From assembly GCA_021732675.1 (NCBI GenBank), contig JAKFUN010000169.1:1-32013 (forward strand): a stretch of 32,013 bases of DNA, read 5' to 3'. The position numbers and the translations under genes were made by a program. This document shows, piece by piece, positions 2,661 to 30,938 of the stretch. The notes beneath the pieces were generated by a model. The model saw only the letters and a program-made list of their open reading frames with translations, was not told the origin of the DNA and ran no database searches. This DNA is from Phycisphaerales bacterium (GTDB lineage: Bacteria; Planctomycetota; Phycisphaerae; Phycisphaerales; UBA1924). Positions within the stretch are counted from its first letter, which is position 1. Each line of letters starts with the position of its first letter.

Positions 2661-3149
2661 TCAGTAGTTTTCGCCGCGCCGGCTGTCTGCGTCGCGAAGC
2701 AGTTGCTCGACTACCGAATCGGTACATCGAAATGTCGTGAGTCGCAGCGCCCCGATCGCTTCTGCGAGCTTGAGCACGCCCTTCTCGTCGGCCAGTTGAA
2801 GGACGCCGAGTGTTCCGGTGACCACCAGGCCTAGACCTTCGGCGGCTTGGGTTCCCTTGCGTTCATCGATCAGCACCACGTCCGCGTGAATCTCATGGGC
2901 GAGACTGATCGCTTCGGTTTCGCCCCGCCCGAGCTTGAGCGATGACTCAAGCGAGCTCGGGGGCCGGACCTCCAGCCAAGCGGGCTTGGCGCTAGCCCAT
3001 TGGCGAACAATCTGTGGACAGCCCGGGTGCGTGAGTTCGCTGACGACGGCGGGGGCCGTCAGCACGCGGCCAAACAGTTTGGGCAGCACATCGACATGCC
3101 CGATGAGGACAAGATAGTTCAGGGGCGAGGTGTCTGAAACGACCAACAT
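2661..3149 (-). CDS. PIN-domain toxin-like protein (DUF3368-type)
   Basis: MLVVSDTSPLNYLVLIGHVDVLPKLFGRVLTAPAVVSEL...LGRGETEAISLAHEIHADVVLIDERKGTQAAEGLGLVVTGTLGVL has the PIN acidic pattern (SDTSPLN, GxxETEAI, LIDERKG). Start overlaps the upstream antitoxin stop (TGATG at about 3149). Confidence 0.88.
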   Translation of the reverse strand: MLVVSDTSPLNYLVLIGHVDVLPKLFGRVLTAPAVVSELTHPGCPQIVRQWASAKPAWLEVRPPSSLESSLKLGRGETEAISLAHEIHADVVLIDERKGTQAAEGLGLVVTGTLGVLQLADEKGVLKLAEAIGALRLTTFRCTDSVVEQLLRDADSRRGENY

Positions 3150-3643: not shown

Positions 3644-4333
3644 TCAGCGGCGGCGACGGCCGGAGAAGGCCAGCAGCGGTAGGAAGGCTGCGAGCGTCGT
3701 GGGGGCGGGAACGGTAAGGACGAAGTCATTGGAGACAGAAGCGGAGGCCCCCGACGCTTGGGTTTCTCCTTCAGAAATTAGGGTGTAGACGACTCCGGCT
3801 CGAAAGATGCCTTGGATCTGAGTTGAGTAGGAACGCCAACTCAACCCATCACCAGTGCCGGGTGCACCTGCTTCGTAGACGGTCTCTCCATCGTCCGATT
3901 TGAGCGAGAAGTGAGTGCCCCCGAGGCCGACGCCGTAGCTACCGCCCGTATAAAAACTGCCGTGAATGTCGACGTTGAGTTCGAACGGCACGTCCACAGT
4001 TGGAGACCAAAAAGATGATGTGAAGTGAAGCTCTGCATATGAGGAGGTAGTGTGGAGACCACCGGTTGAATGCACTGAATCTGTCGATCGGATGAGCGAA
4101 GTACTGATAAGGGAGCTTGTGGACCACGAGAAGTTGCCGTAGAACGGGCCCGGCGCGGAAAACATGATCGAGTCGGAGTAGGGGCCAGCGTTGTTGACGG
4201 TGTGCGAAAGAGAGCCGCCACCGTTCGCGACATGACCCGCAAAGACACGGGACTGGCTCAGCAAAACGACATCGGCGTGGGCCAGGGCAGTTCCAAGTGC
4301 GCAGAGCGAGACGGCGGCGAGTTTGAACTGCAT
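3644..4333 (-). CDS. Secreted protein with PEP-CTERM-like C-terminus
   Basis: ATG at 4333 with GGAG upstream; signal peptide MQFKLAAVSLCALGTALAHA; C-terminus VPAPTTLAAFLPLLAFSGRRRR (VPxP, hydrophobic stretch, RRRR). Confidence 0.75.
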   Translation of the reverse strand: MQFKLAAVSLCALGTALAHADVVLLSQSRVFAGHVANGGGSLSHTVNNAGPYSDSIMFSAPGPFYGNFSWSTSSLISTSLIRSTDSVHSTGGLHTTSSYAELHFTSSFWSPTVDVPFELNVDIHGSFYTGGSYGVGLGGTHFSLKSDDGETVYEAGAPGTGDGLSWRSYSTQIQGIFRAGVVYTLISEGETQASGASASVSNDFVLTVPAPTTLAAFLPLLAFSGRRRR

Positions 4334-4522
4334 GAGATCTCCTTCTGACTGAACAAGCCCCAGCGTAGGCCCCTCTAAGTGAGCGACCCGCCGAGAGAAC
4401 ATACAGCAGATTTTGAGAGGTGCCACGAATCTGAGAGCTTTTTTGGGGCTGGGGGTCGAATTCTCGGGTAGTAGTCGCTTGCGTCACGGGGTCTCAACTG
4501 AAATCCACCAGAAAACGCGTCC

Positions 4523-4807: not shown

Positions 4808-8641
<3,834 letters not shown>

Positions 8642-20031: not shown

Positions 20032-21333
20032 TCACTTCCCTGACTTTTGCCGCTCCATCTGCGCCTTGATCATTTTTCGAATCTGCGTCGCCTGAGCCTT
20101 CATCCCGGGCACGCTGTTCAGGTCGGCATCGATGGCCGTGAACCACTGCGTGCCCGCGTAGGTGTACCCGTCGTCGGTGAGGTGGTTCTCCAGGTCCGGC
20201 AGGTGTCCGGCGCCGTAGAAGAGCGCGATGGACTTGGGAGCGGGCTTTTCCGCGCTCGCCGCCGCCAGGTCCTTGAGCACCGCCTGGTTGCGGTCCTGCA
20301 CGATCACCTTCATCAGCGTGTCCAGGCCCTGGCCTTGCTTGCCGGCGATGGCCGCCAGGTCGTCCGCGTGGGCCAGCACCTCGACCATCATGACTTTCAC
20401 CGTCAGCGACAACTCCGGGCTGCGTTCCACAAAGCCGAGCATGAAGCCCATGAGCTTGGAGGCAAAGGATGAGCCGTCCAGCATCTTGAAGAGCGCGTCA
20501 CCCGACGCCCCTGAGGCCTCGAGCTTCTTCTGCACTTCGTCGATCGACAGATCGCTGTTGCGCCAGTTGGGGTGCGAGTAGTCAATCGCGGCCAGCTGAA
20601 ACTTCAGCCCCATCGCGCGGGCGAGCTTGGTTTGGATTCCCTCCCCAGAACTGTCGAGTTCCTGTGTGGTGAGCGGCTTCTGGGTGGAGAAAGCGATGTC
20701 CGCCGCGGCCCCTTCCCCCCCGGGGGCGGCGTCGTTTCCAAGGCTGATGATGTCAAACTTCGCGGGAGTCGCGGGGTCAACCTTGAGCTCTTGCGGATGG
20801 CCCCAGGCATCGATCGTGGCGGCTTTGCCGAGTCTTGCGATGCTCCCGTGCAGCGGCGTCAGCACCTCTTCAAAGCTCGCCGGCATCGCGTTCTTCTCTG
20901 CCCGAAACCTCGAAATCAGCACCGCGAGCAAACGCTGGCGCTGGATCGTCACCTTCGCCTTCGCCGCGTCGTCCCCCGGCTCAGCCTCGTCGGCCCCCGA
21001 AGGCTTCACCCCTTCGAAGAGCACCAGCCCCTGCCCGTCCAAGTACTTCTGCAACGCGTCGTAGTAGGCCTGGTCGCCGATGTGCACCACGCCCACCAAC
21101 TGAACTTCTGGCGCGCCGGGCTTGGTCAGCGTGCGAACCGCGATCTCGAGTTTGAGGCGCGAGCCGCCCTCTGCGTCGGTCACGCGGATGTACTTGCCTT
21201 CAGATTCGGAGGGGGTAGCCGCAGCGGCAGGTTGCGGCTCCGAAGACTTCGGCGCCTGAGCCCAACCAACCCTCGGGTTCAAGCCACCACCCAACACGAG
21301 CAACGCGGCGACGGTTCGAAGTGAGCGAAGCAT
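20032..21333 (-). CDS. TraB/GumN-like secreted protein with internal GspG-like segment
   Basis: Signal peptide-like N-terminus; VQLVGVVHIGDQAYYDALQKYLDGQGLVLFEGVKPSG and ALFYGAGHLPDLENHLTDDGY resemble TraB; internal DAWGHPQELKVDPATPAKFDIISLGNDAAPGGEGAAADIAFS resembles the GspG C-terminal domain. Confidence 0.7.
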   Translation of the reverse strand: MLRSLRTVAALLVLGGGLNPRVGWAQAPKSSEPQPAAAATPSESEGKYIRVTDAEGGSRLKLEIAVRTLTKPGAPEVQLVGVVHIGDQAYYDALQKYLDGQGLVLFEGVKPSGADEAEPGDDAAKAKVTIQRQRLLAVLISRFRAEKNAMPASFEEVLTPLHGSIARLGKAATIDAWGHPQELKVDPATPAKFDIISLGNDAAPGGEGAAADIAFSTQKPLTTQELDSSGEGIQTKLARAMGLKFQLAAIDYSHPNWRNSDLSIDEVQKKLEASGASGDALFKMLDGSSFASKLMGFMLGFVERSPELSLTVKVMMVEVLAHADDLAAIAGKQGQGLDTLMKVIVQDRNQAVLKDLAAASAEKPAPKSIALFYGAGHLPDLENHLTDDGYTYAGTQWFTAIDADLNSVPGMKAQATQIRKMIKAQMERQKSGK

Positions 21334-25882: not shown

Positions 25883-26248
25883 TCACTGCCGGCTGGCCAG
25901 GGCCAGCATGATGTCCGGCAGGTTGTGGTCAAACGAACCTCGGGTGAAGACCTGGTCGGCCCCGGCGTCGCGCGCTTGCTGCAATAGGTCTTTGGCCACG
26001 TGGGGGCCGAAGGCCAGTACCCGGATGGGGCGGGCACCCTCCTGAGCGATGGACTTGACCCGGGCAAGCATGGTCATGGCCTCGTCGGGCTTGTCCAGGT
26101 CGAGTAGCAGAGCCGAGACCGGGCTGTCGGCCAGGCGTGCCTCCAGCATCTCCAAGGAACGCACGGGCCGGGCCGGGAGGCCCAGAGAATCGGCGACGCC
26201 TTTGATCTTCGAGGCCCACAAAAGGTCCGCGGCGAGGTACAAAATCAT
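25883..26248 (-). CDS. Receiver-domain-like protein (stand-alone)
   Basis: MILYLAADLLWASKIKGVADSLGLPARPVRS...VSALLLDLDKPDEAMTMLARVKSIAQ...RVLAFGPHVAKDLLQQARDAGADQVFTRGSF: receiver-like alternation with an acidic LLLDLD, but an incomplete acidic pocket. Confidence 0.55.
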   Translation of the reverse strand: MILYLAADLLWASKIKGVADSLGLPARPVRSLEMLEARLADSPVSALLLDLDKPDEAMTMLARVKSIAQEGARPIRVLAFGPHVAKDLLQQARDAGADQVFTRGSFDHNLPDIMLALASRQ

Positions 26249-26446: not shown

Positions 26447-27832
26447 ATGAGCAGTGCAACGGCTTCGAAGAAAACAGGGAAGACCGCGGCGGCCAAGTCC
26501 CAAAAGGCTGGCGGTGGCCGCGGGGGCGAGGGCGTTCAGAACAGCCACCCCATCTTTACCGAGCTCGGGTTCTCGCCCGACGCCAACAACCTCTACCGGC
26601 AGACCGTCAGCTCGATGCTCCAGGCTGCGGACTTGATGAACCTTCCGCACCACCTCAAGATCATCCTGGCCCAGCCCAAGAACGAGATCATGGTGCACTT
26701 CCCCGTCCGCATGGATGACGGGGAGTTTCGCATGTTCAAGGGCTATCGCGTTCAGCACAACAACGCGCTGGGCCCCTACAAGGGCGGCCTCCGTTTTCAC
26801 CATGACGTCCACCTCGACGATGTCAAGAGCCTTGCCTTCTTGATGACGATGAAATGCTCGCTGGTGGGCGTCCCCTACGGCGGCGGCAAGGGTGGCATCA
26901 AGGTCGATCCTTACAAGCACAGCAAGAGCGAGATGGAGCGGATCGTCCGCCGCTTCACCGCGGCCATCGCCCACCAGATCGGGCCGGATTACGACATCCC
27001 CGCGCCGGACGTCGGTTCTAACGCCCAGCACATGGCCTGGATCGCCGATACCTACGCCTTTTTGTCCGAAGTTGGTGGTCGCCATCCCGAGGCGGTCATC
27101 ACCGGCAAGCCGGTAGAGTTCGGCGGATCGGTCGGGCGCGAAAAGGCTACCGGCCAGGGCGTCGTCGACACCCTCGCCGAGATGCTCCCCGAGATTGGCG
27201 TCGACATGAAGGGGTGCAAGGTCAGCATCCTGGGCTACGGCAACGTCGGCTCGTGGACCGGGCGGATTTTGCAGGATCGCGGGGCCAAAATCATCGCGGT
27301 CATGGATCACACCGGCGCGATCATGAACGATCACGGGATCGACGCCCACGCTCTGGCGCTGCACACCAGCAAGGTCGGAGGCGTGGCGGGCTTCAAGAAC
27401 GCCGACACGATCGACAAGACCGAGTTTTACTCGACCAAGGTGGATGTCTTTGTGCCCGCCGCCTTGGAGCAGATGATCCAGGAGCCCGAGGCGAAGATGC
27501 TCAACTGCAAGGTGGTCGCCGAGGGCGCCAACGCCCCGACCACACCGGCGGGCGAGCGCGTCCTCGAAGGCCGCGGGATCGAAGTGCTCCCGGCCATTCT
27601 CTGCAACGCCGGGGGAGTCACCGTCAGCTACTTCGAATGGGTGCAGAACCGCACCTTCCAGTCCTGGGATCTGGAGCACGTCGACACCGAGCTCAACAAG
27701 CACATGATCCGGGCAGCCGGACGCGTGCGCGACGCCCGCAAGAAGTACAAGTGCAACCTGCGCACCGCGGCGTATGTCGGGGCGCTGGAGCGCCTGCGAG
27801 CTGCCTACGAGATTCGCGGCTTGTTCCCGTAA
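26447..27832 (+). CDS. Glu/Leu/Phe/Val dehydrogenase
   Basis: Catalytic GGLRFHHDVHLDDVKSLAFLMTMKCSLVGVPYGGGKGGIKVDP and nucleotide-binding VSILGYGNVGSWTGRIL. Confidence 0.95.
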   Translation: MSSATASKKTGKTAAAKSQKAGGGRGGEGVQNSHPIFTELGFSPDANNLYRQTVSSMLQAADLMNLPHHLKIILAQPKNEIMVHFPVRMDDGEFRMFKGYRVQHNNALGPYKGGLRFHHDVHLDDVKSLAFLMTMKCSLVGVPYGGGKGGIKVDPYKHSKSEMERIVRRFTAAIAHQIGPDYDIPAPDVGSNAQHMAWIADTYAFLSEVGGRHPEAVITGKPVEFGGSVGREKATGQGVVDTLAEMLPEIGVDMKGCKVSILGYGNVGSWTGRILQDRGAKIIAVMDHTGAIMNDHGIDAHALALHTSKVGGVAGFKNADTIDKTEFYSTKVDVFVPAALEQMIQEPEAKMLNCKVVAEGANAPTTPAGERVLEGRGIEVLPAILCNAGGVTVSYFEWVQNRTFQSWDLEHVDTELNKHMIRAAGRVRDARKKYKCNLRTAAYVGALERLRAAYEIRGLFP

Positions 27833-27928: not shown

Positions 27929-28330
27929 TCAGTTGGGGGCCGCGGCTGGGGCTGCGGGCCCGAGCTGATGGCTCACCGGTTGGAGCGATTCAGAATCCGA
28001 AGCGAAGTGCCACGTCCAGGAGACGCCCAGGCGAGAGCCCTCCAGCGTGGCCCCTTCATACGACTTGGGCTCGATGGGAGCGTGGAGCGATAGAGTCGTT
28101 TGCCCTGGGGGCAGAATGGCCGCGTTGAGCGTCTGAGTACCCCGCTTTCCGGACACAACAATGGTCGCGCCGCGGACCAAAGCCCCCGAGTTGTGGATGA
28201 TCACCGTGTTGTCTACAACAGAGACGCGGAGCCCGCCGCCGATTTGAACTGCAACAAACATGAGCCCCGCGAAGAGAAGCACCAGAACGACAACAACAGT
28301 CACGAACGCGGATCGAATCGATACTCGCAT
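27929..28330 (-). CDS. Small membrane-anchored protein (family 'NSG', copy A)
   Basis: ATG 28330 with AGGA upstream; one TM helix (FVTVVVVLVLLFAGLMFVAVQIG); NTVIIHNSG...ATLEGSRLGVSWTWHF similar to the product of 30561-30938. Confidence 0.65.
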   Translation of the reverse strand: MRVSIRSAFVTVVVVLVLLFAGLMFVAVQIGGGLRVSVVDNTVIIHNSGALVRGATIVVSGKRGTQTLNAAILPPGQTTLSLHAPIEPKSYEGATLEGSRLGVSWTWHFASDSESLQPVSHQLGPAAPAAAPN

Positions 28331-28615
28331 ATGGATTTCCTGGGGCTGATCGACCTTCCATCCCTCACCGTTAGCGGGCGCTGCGTGAAAGCCCGTGCCT
28401 GATCGGCTGGACATTGTTATTATACTCAGGGTCAGGGTTTGTGCCCGGCCCTGGCCCCCCGCGGCCCCTCACCACTTTTGCCGAGGGAACTCGCTTCACG
28501 GGAGGTCATCGCGGGGATTGGTTTCTGACCCGCTCACAGTATGAACCGCCCAATCTTGTGGCACGGGCGTCCCGCCTGGGTCCCTCCATCCCTTCACTTC
28601 ATCCTGTGAGAGGCA

Positions 28616-29353
28616 CTAGTTGTACGCGAGGCAACTTGCCCACGTCGACTGGCCCAGCAACCAGGCCTTCTCGTCGCTGTACCCATCTTGCAGGTTCTGG
28701 GTTGCGAAAAGGCACGCGAACTGGCAACAGAGCTTCTCGATCTCCCTCGAGGCACCAAAGCCAATCGAGATGAACGGCACCGAAAAAAGCGGAACTCCAT
28801 CCGCCCCCGCGCACGTGCAGCTCGCGCCGAATCGCCCCGCGTCGCCTGAAGGTGCTTCCCCAGCGGCCAGTCCCACATTGGGCGAGCTTCGGAGCGATTC
28901 CATCTCCTGGGCGATGCGTTCCGGAGAGACCAGGCTCGCGACCATGAACTGGCGGCTGACACCCTGCGGGCCCGTCAGTTGCACCTTGGAGATGACGACG
29001 CCAACCCACCTGGGAGCTTCATCAGGCGAGTGCAGCTCGGCGAGGGCCAGGCTCCACTGGACCGATCCCACCCCGTCGCGGATGGCGGCAGGAAACTCAG
29101 CCACGACCAGTCGCTCGTCTGCGACGACAAGCACGCCAGCGTTCGCCCCCGTCGCATCTTCCAGCGTCAGCATCCCTCCCGGCACCTCGTAAGCGATATG
29201 CGTCGAGTCGGGGAGGCTGCTTGACACTTCCGCGCGAGTCTCGAGGGCGGGCTCCCGGGACCGATCGACCCCCACCTGGCCATGGGCGAGGGGGGGCACC
29301 ACCATCGAAAGCAACCAGAGGGCGGCTCGAAACGCTGGGAAAGATCGTGGCAT
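28616..29353 (-). CDS. Secreted Cys-rich protein of unknown function (copy A)
   Basis: ATG 29353 with GGAG upstream; signal peptide MPRSFPAFRAALWLLSMVVPPLAHGQ; C-terminal CTC...PFISIGFG...EKLCCQFAC...GYSDEKAWLLGQSTWASC matching the neighbour at 29737-30471. Confidence 0.72.
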   Translation of the reverse strand: MPRSFPAFRAALWLLSMVVPPLAHGQVGVDRSREPALETRAEVSSSLPDSTHIAYEVPGGMLTLEDATGANAGVLVVADERLVVAEFPAAIRDGVGSVQWSLALAELHSPDEAPRWVGVVISKVQLTGPQGVSRQFMVASLVSPERIAQEMESLRSSPNVGLAAGEAPSGDAGRFGASCTCAGADGVPLFSVPFISIGFGASREIEKLCCQFACLFATQNLQDGYSDEKAWLLGQSTWASCLAYN

Positions 29354-29736
29354 CGGAGGGCTCCTTTGAGGACTGGCCGGATGGCGTGCGGTGTGTGTGC
29401 CGCGCCATCGCTGATTCAACCCAACCCCAGCGGAGAGCATGATGACTGAGATTGGTTATCGCAATAGGGACTTTGCTTCACTTTGGCCAAGATGCCGTGT
29501 GCGGCCCGCGTCTTCCCCCTCAATAGAGAAGGCAAATCGGGCAGTCAGCCACCGAACTTCGCGCGAGAACGGCAAGGCGATGTCGAGACTTGAGGGGACG
29601 CTGCCGCGGATGAAGATGGGCAAAGTGCTAAGCGACCAAAACTCTACGGAAAAAGAAGCGCCGGCCATGGCGTGACCGGCTCTCCGAGGAGGCATCGTGC
29701 GAGCGTATTGAAGACGCTCGCGACGAAGACCGACGG

Positions 29737-30471
29737 TTAGGCGCAGAGCATGCAGGTGACCCACACGCCCTGTCCGACGAGCCAGGCTTCGGGGTAGCCG
29801 GCTCCGGTGTGGAGCGAGTTGCACCCGGCCGCGCACGCCAGGCCGCAACAGGCTTCTGCGACCGACGACGTGTTCCGAACTCCGATCACGAAGAAGGGCG
29901 CCCAGAAACGACCACCCAGGGGGCAGGCGGGGCAACTGCAGGAGGATCCCAGGCTGCGGGCGGCATTGGCCTCGGCCGAAGGAACCACTTCGACCCCGCT
30001 GGTGCTGCGAATGGCTTCGATGACTGACCAGGCGGTGTCGTCGGTGATGATGCTGGCCGCGCTGAAGGCGGTCACGATTCCGGCCGCGTCGACCAATCGC
30101 ACATTGGAGATCACGAGCCCAGCCACGATCGGCGAGCTGTCGGGGGTTAGAAGCGTCCCGCGAGCGACCGACCAGGTGACCGTGCCGCTCGCGTCGTTGA
30201 TGGCGGCTGGCAGATTGCTGGCGACCACTTCCTCGTCATTGATCAGGAACGCGCCCGTGGTGGCCCCGCTCGCGCTGCTCAGGGTGAGGGCTGACGCCGT
30301 CGCAAACGACGCCAGATAGGTGGAACTCCCGCAGCTGGCAGTGGGGGAGCCGATCGACACGCCGCTGGGCTGGGCAGTTTGAACACTCCCGACCTGGCCC
30401 AGGGCCAGCGAACTGAGCATCAAGCCCGCAGCCGCACACATCGCCCGAACACAAGCCATTGAGAATCGCAT
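29737..30471 (-). CDS. Secreted Cys-rich protein of unknown function (copy B)
   Basis: ATG 30471 with GGAG upstream; signal peptide MRFSMACVRAMCAAAGLMLSSLALGQ; C-terminal CSCPAC...PFFVIGVR...EACCGLACAAGC...GYPEAWLVGQGVWVTC. Confidence 0.75.
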   Translation of the reverse strand: MRFSMACVRAMCAAAGLMLSSLALGQVGSVQTAQPSGVSIGSPTASCGSSTYLASFATASALTLSSASGATTGAFLINDEEVVASNLPAAINDASGTVTWSVARGTLLTPDSSPIVAGLVISNVRLVDAAGIVTAFSAASIITDDTAWSVIEAIRSTSGVEVVPSAEANAARSLGSSCSCPACPLGGRFWAPFFVIGVRNTSSVAEACCGLACAAGCNSLHTGAGYPEAWLVGQGVWVTCMLCA

Positions 30472-30560
30472 GCACAGATCTCCTGGTCGCAAGAGGCGTG
30501 CCGCCCAAGTTCACACGAGCCTGGGCCGCACGCGAAAAGACAGCGGGTGAATGTCATACA

Positions 30561-30938
30561 TCAGGAAGAAAAGCGAGAATCTGGCCGAGTCGAGCACGTC
30601 GAGCTCGCGGGCGAACCAGGCAGCAAGAGAACCCAACACCACGGAATGCCCAGCCGGCGGCCTTCAATCGTGACGCTGCGAATCTCTCCCTGGGTCAACG
30701 TGCTTGGCAGCGGGTAGGCACTCACGCCTGGCTGGATCGGACCCCGGTAGATCTCGATAGAAGCGGGCAAAGCGGGAATCAGGATGCGGGCCGCGGCTAT
30801 CTTGCCTCCCGAGTTCTGAATCGTCAGTCGGCCAAGCTCCAAATTCGGAGACAGTCGCGAGTCAAGCAGAAGTCCAATCTGACGAAGCAGCCACCCGCAT
30901 GCCGTCGCCACAAATCGCCTCACTAGTCCAAACACCAT
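30561..30938 (-). CDS. Small protein (family 'NSG', copy B)
   Basis: ATG 30938 with GGGGGAG upstream; RLTIQNSGG...ILIPALPASIEIYRGPIQPG...VTIEGRRLGIPWCWVL similar to 27929-28330. Confidence 0.6.
   Translation of the reverse strand: MVFGLVRRFVATACGWLLRQIGLLLDSRLSPNLELGRLTIQNSGGKIAAARILIPALPASIEIYRGPIQPGVSAYPLPSTLTQGEIRSVTIEGRRLGIPWCWVLLLPGSPASSTCSTRPDSRFSS

Follow-up and report, generated by a model that had tools for sequence, protein, structure and literature searches.

Two protein families, which we call Cys and NSG, are encoded side by side in the same nine genomes of one Phycisphaerales family, always with the Cys gene followed on the same strand by the NSG gene. We propose, with about even confidence, that they constitute a two-gene cell-envelope module in which NSG holds or stabilizes the Cys protein. 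The families are considered here from a 32,013-nucleotide contig of a Phycisphaerales bacterium (JAKFUN010000169.1, hereafter the window), which carries one additional and strongly diverged copy of each gene. What had been two unrecognized pairs of open reading frames are now two defined families with a strict genomic partnership and a testable interaction hypothesis in a poorly characterized bacterial group; the narrow taxonomic range limits the reach of the finding.

Two families in the window

A preliminary description of this DNA reported two mirrored pairs of paralogs, and translation bears out all four minus-strand reading frames. The features relevant here are as follows:

26447..27832, plus strand: glutamate dehydrogenase (by reading of the sequence); marks the ancestral site of the pair and lies outside the module
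27929..28330, minus strand: NSG-A, 133 aa; conserved NSG copy and, as in relatives, the last gene before glutamate dehydrogenase
28616..29353, minus strand: Cys-A, 245 aa; fast-evolving paralog of Cys-B
29649..29693, minus strand: noncoding stretch with a terminator-like hairpin (stem 29680-29660, then a T-run), shortly 3' of the Cys-B stop
29737..30471, minus strand: Cys-B, 244 aa; conserved, ancestral-like copy
30561..30938, minus strand: NSG-B, 125 aa; diverged NSG paralog

Read along the minus strand, the order is NSG-B, Cys-B, Cys-A, NSG-A. "Mirrored" is apt for this gene order but not for its history, and all four genes lie on one strand. The window genome is 71% complete, and more copies may reside elsewhere in it.

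Cys-A and Cys-B are full-length paralogs, as first described (78 of 245 residues identical, or 32%; E = 5e-41), and Cys-B shares 55% identity over the aligned region with the only Cys protein of G001, the nearest relative. For NSG-A and NSG-B, a single pairwise comparison (22 of 83 residues identical, 27%; E = 1e-7) was too weak to be trusted alone and was therefore retested with a profile built exclusively from the NSG proteins of other genomes, both window copies being excluded. NSG-A scored 75.9 bits and NSG-B 32.6 bits against this profile, compared with 7.8 bits for the best of 500 composition-preserving shuffles of NSG-B. The claimed kinship is thereby borne out and, judged by profile score, NSG-B is genuinely, if remotely, related to NSG-A. 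The latter is 36% identical to the NSG protein of G001. The motifs originally quoted for both families are present and coincide with conserved columns of their alignments.

By direct reading, the N terminus of the Cys proteins is a hydrophobic segment that leads to a small-residue/Gln site of the kind seen in Sec signal peptides, with the Gln mostly at or adjoining the likely cleavage site. In Cys-B, the putative signal peptide ends in LALGQ and is followed by a beta domain (residues ~50-160) and a Cys-rich C-terminal domain (~175-244). The C-terminal domain is the best-conserved part of the family: of its ~76 columns, 15 (including six Cys) do not vary across ten proteins, and its motifs are, in order, CxCxxC, FWxPFxVIG, CCxxxCxxxC, and GQGTWVxCMxC. 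Nine cysteines characterize this domain across the family, and Cys-B has all nine. Cys-A has lost four of the ten consensus mature cysteines, namely the N-terminal one and three C-terminal ones (aligned to Cys-B 183, 217, and 243); with the six invariant C-terminal cysteines (CxC, CC, C, and C) all kept, it is a member of the family. Cys-A and the G031 protein are the two that lack the N-terminal cysteine (near residue 45-47), and the same two lack the last cysteine; 183 and 217 are both lost in Cys-A. These co-losses, few as the events are, would fit paired bonds 47-243 and 183-217. An apparently odd number of mature cysteines in four of the eight Cys proteins from other genomes (G002, G004, G005, and G008) would match a simple all-disulfide protein poorly.

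AlphaFold2 predicts for Cys-B a six-strand beta domain (51-142), a helix, and two C-terminal helices (202-221 and 226-243) in a model of moderate quality (pLDDT 66.9) that draws on a shallow alignment of only seven sequences. The model has no matching fold among solved or viral structures; a levivirus coat-protein fold was rejected as not significant (E about 0.09), and profile searches of the PDB returned noise only. The C-terminal domain, with no described family and a model without a known fold, is a reasonable candidate for structure determination.

In NSG-A, the N-terminal segment is strongly hydrophobic (19-residue Kyte-Doolittle mean 3.09), and the eight NSG proteins of other genomes reach 1.9-2.8. 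The view that both window NSG proteins are small membrane proteins holds for NSG-A but not for NSG-B, in which the best 19-residue window scores 1.20, lies away from the N terminus, and forms no convincing helix. NSG-B is the only member of the family without an N-terminal transmembrane helix and has probably lost its membrane anchor. In the AlphaFold2 model of NSG-A (mean pLDDT 78.9), a membrane helix (5-30) precedes a predicted seven-strand domain, for which the best Foldseek matches are immunoglobulin (Ig)- or FnIII-like sandwiches, including pilin-chaperone complexes, fibronectin domains, and designed Ig-like proteins. Foldseek probabilities are near 1, but TM-scores over the query are about 0.3-0.4, there is no sequence family match, and the N-terminal membrane helix is an addition. 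A fold this common is non-specific and gives NSG no function.

Neither family was recognized in the preliminary description, and this holds on searching: with a match defined as a score above the curated cut-off or E of at most 0.001, no Pfam, NCBIfam, PHROGs, or PADLOC family was found for Cys or NSG. The best score was that of Cys-B against PF12245 (Big_3_2), at 17.4 bits versus a cut-off of 23.3 and in one of nine members only. An hmmscan of three Cys C-terminal domains at E up to 10, in which the HMMER filters drop most weak matches, also returned no family, and a literature search found no description of such a family.

Genomic partnership and taxonomic range

In a co-occurrence test that was set beforehand, the Cys profile picked out nine convincing carriers among 163 genomes of the window's taxonomic family, and the NSG profile picked out the identical nine; both families are absent from at least 153 of the 163. 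The carriers are the window genome (G000), five congeners (G001-G005), and single genomes from three further genera (G008, G031, and G391). One of the window's six congeners, G006, is without the pair. In all nine carriers, the Cys and NSG genes adjoin in that order on the same strand. The gap measures 285 bases in the window and 234 in G001; in the other seven genomes it is 3-43. This strict association supports the earlier suggestion of a functional pair.

Glutamate dehydrogenase adjoins or lies near the pair in six carriers (the window, G001, G003, G004, G008, and G391). The pair occupies another genomic context in G002 and G005 and a third site, beside an S20-like ribosomal protein gene, in G031. 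Its presence at three or more sites indicates that Cys and NSG stayed together through relocation. Part of the adjacency is nevertheless inherited rather than selected anew, given that the ancestral site is common to six carriers. In genomes without the pair, no trace of Cys-NSG was seen beside glutamate dehydrogenase. A separate gene of this neighborhood (25883-26248, minus strand) encodes a 121-aa protein with no Pfam match, which is also found near or adjoining glutamate dehydrogenase in G003, G004, G006, and G015.

Convincing matches were confined to the window's family among 101 relatives that included other families of the order, among 397 genomes of the class, and among 392 genomes of the phylum queried with the C-terminal domain alone. 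Viral contigs and a plasmid collection, the latter searched by single-protein tblastn, gave no match. A profile scan of 85,462 named species genomes returned five loci, four of them titled Phycisphaerae, Phycisphaerales, or Tepidisphaera. As far as searched, then, both families are confined to one Phycisphaerales family, with the proviso that the genome search scored limited candidates per genome and may miss very distant relatives. The fifth locus (QWIH01000049.1) is metagenome-assembled and bears a cyanobacterial name, Leptolyngbya sp. PLA1; its protein sequence is the same as that of G002, and the title is probably that of a mislabelled planctomycete record.

Several weaker similarities were set aside. 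Cys-like matches in G038, G264, G388, and G444 (E from 3e-4 to 8e-3) were short and either ran across stops or fell in an unrelated frame, which in G444 contains an HExxH-type motif; matches to NSG-B in distant genomes were likewise short or contained stops. Separately, genome G497 encodes a protein of 132 aa that has a membrane helix and resembles the NSG profile weakly over its full length (E = 5e-4; contig C21, ~7313-7723, minus strand). It has no Cys neighbor, and no Cys match occurs anywhere in that genome.

Origin of the extra copies

Sequence conservation, a conserved hairpin, and the position of NSG-A at glutamate dehydrogenase together identify Cys-B and NSG-A as the ancestral pair and Cys-A and NSG-B as accelerated extra copies. 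Cys-A, Cys-B, and the Cys protein of G001 form one clade (support 97/97) within which the branch leading to Cys-A measures 2.6 and that to Cys-B 0.3. NSG-B has the longest branch of its family (2.69 versus 1.22 for NSG-A) and no firm placement. The 45-base hairpin stretch is 91% identical between the window and G001, where the Cys genes are 68% identical as DNA, and in G001 it lies between Cys and NSG. It looks like a terminator or attenuator between the two genes. A dispersed repeat was ruled out as its origin by the presence of a single copy of the core pattern in each of these two genomes; the other seven genomes have none.

Cys-A now separates Cys-B from NSG-A, and NSG-B lies 89 bases upstream of Cys-B, so that the NSG/Cys order there is reversed relative to every relative. 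This arrangement is not what one tandem duplication of a Cys-NSG unit would produce, and the intergenic DNA of the window holds no remnants of further Cys or NSG copies, which would be expected from a triple tandem array followed by losses. Cys-A plus NSG-B is not a copied Cys-NSG unit, and joint duplication, which had been offered as the reason for regarding the families as partners, is a weak argument for it. We envisage that each gene gained one additional copy next to Cys-B and NSG-A in the window lineage and that these copies then diverged fast.

It is possible, although we lean against it, that Cys-A and NSG-B are decaying, functionless remnants and that only Cys-B and NSG-A are of consequence, a view compatible with any of the functional readings below. 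Their long branches and the loss of cysteines and anchor point that way; both reading frames are nonetheless intact, and Cys-A retains its signal peptide and the six family-invariant cysteines.

Proposed function, its alternatives, and other genes of the window

In the proposed envelope module, the Cys product would be exported by Sec and carry a beta domain plus a C-terminal domain, in which conserved cysteines may staple the helices and the loop leading into them. The NSG gene, usually 3-43 bases downstream, would yield a single-pass membrane protein with its Ig/FnIII-like domain facing outward. Given this predicted topology and the strict pairing, we infer that NSG holds or stabilizes the Cys protein on the outer side of the cytoplasmic membrane, either as a docking partner or as an assembly factor. 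The two families, their co-occurrence and adjacency, and the unequal divergence of the copies are computed results; export, topology, and folds are model predictions, and disulfide bonding, physical contact between the two proteins, and the anchoring role are inferred. The preliminary description had likewise imagined a membrane anchor with an exported partner, which fits NSG-A and both Cys proteins but not NSG-B, whose anchor is probably gone. A more specific and rather unlikely extension is a two-part Phycisphaerales envelope system in which a dedicated bitopic Ig-like partner holds a Cys-stapled exported protein by its conserved C-terminal helical domain, and the cysteine-poor Cys-A with the unanchored NSG-B forms a specialized variant pair.

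Two alternatives assign the C-terminal domain another role, and both are possible but less supported than an envelope module. Its cysteines, in the CxCxxC loop, the CCxxxCxxxC helix, and the CxxC end, could coordinate Cu(I), Zn, or a different metal rather than pair as disulfides, NSG then serving as the membrane docking partner. Nine conserved cysteines are an odd number, and CxxxCxxxC spacing on a predicted helix places the thiols on one helix face. The helices of copper storage proteins (Csp) likewise carry thiols on one face, and Csp1 is exported. The Cys family resembles Csp1 and Csp3 in having cysteines on helices with CxxxC spacing, but it differs in its additional beta domain, its CxC and CC motifs, and its probable export by Sec rather than Tat (by direct reading), and it lacks both the sequence match and the Cys-lined four-helix bundle by which a Csp is recognized, only two C-terminal helices being predicted. 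Background on Csp proteins is given in PMC9484137. The absence of a Pfam or NCBIfam match, the tolerance of Cys-A for losing three of the nine cysteines, and the fact that no metal-homeostasis gene was seen next to the pair in the loci inspected speak against metal binding, which we regard as improbable. Nor do we favor a released antimicrobial with NSG as its immunity protein, which we regard as the least probable of the readings. Halocin C8 offers the precedent, its precursor carrying a Cys-rich C-terminal peptide behind a signal peptide and middle domain, with a neighboring protein encoded alongside. The Cys layout is alike (signal peptide, variable middle, Cys-rich C-terminal domain of ~75 residues, and an adjacent small membrane protein), and the duplicates diverge fast. 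The C-terminal domain is, however, the most conserved part of the protein, whereas toxin moieties usually diversify; it gave no bacteriocin family by hmmscan, and NSG combines a single membrane helix with an Ig-like domain. The pair sits mostly at one fixed chromosomal site, with none in the plasmid collection or viral contigs, and we noticed neither a transporter nor a protease gene next to it.

A further reading denies any partnership and takes Cys and NSG to be two unrelated envelope genes that are neighbors by common descent. The carriers are few and related, six share the glutamate dehydrogenase site, and the extra copies in the window break the usual order. We nevertheless judge this very unlikely, since both genes are jointly missing from nearly all genomes of the family, both moved together to at least two further sites, and the short gaps in seven genomes suggest a single transcript. 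The envelope module remains the reading we prefer.

Other genes of the window deserve brief mention. A PIN-type toxin-like gene (2661-3149, minus strand; DUF3368 just above the cut-off) lies between an rplL-like gene and rpoB, an interval in which an unbroken series of ribosomal protein and RNA polymerase genes is usual, and is followed by a gene for an exported protein (3644-4426, minus strand). Finally, a 433-aa protein (20032-21333, minus strand) shows an unusual combination of a type II secretion protein G domain above the cut-off and a weak TraB/PrgY similarity below it.
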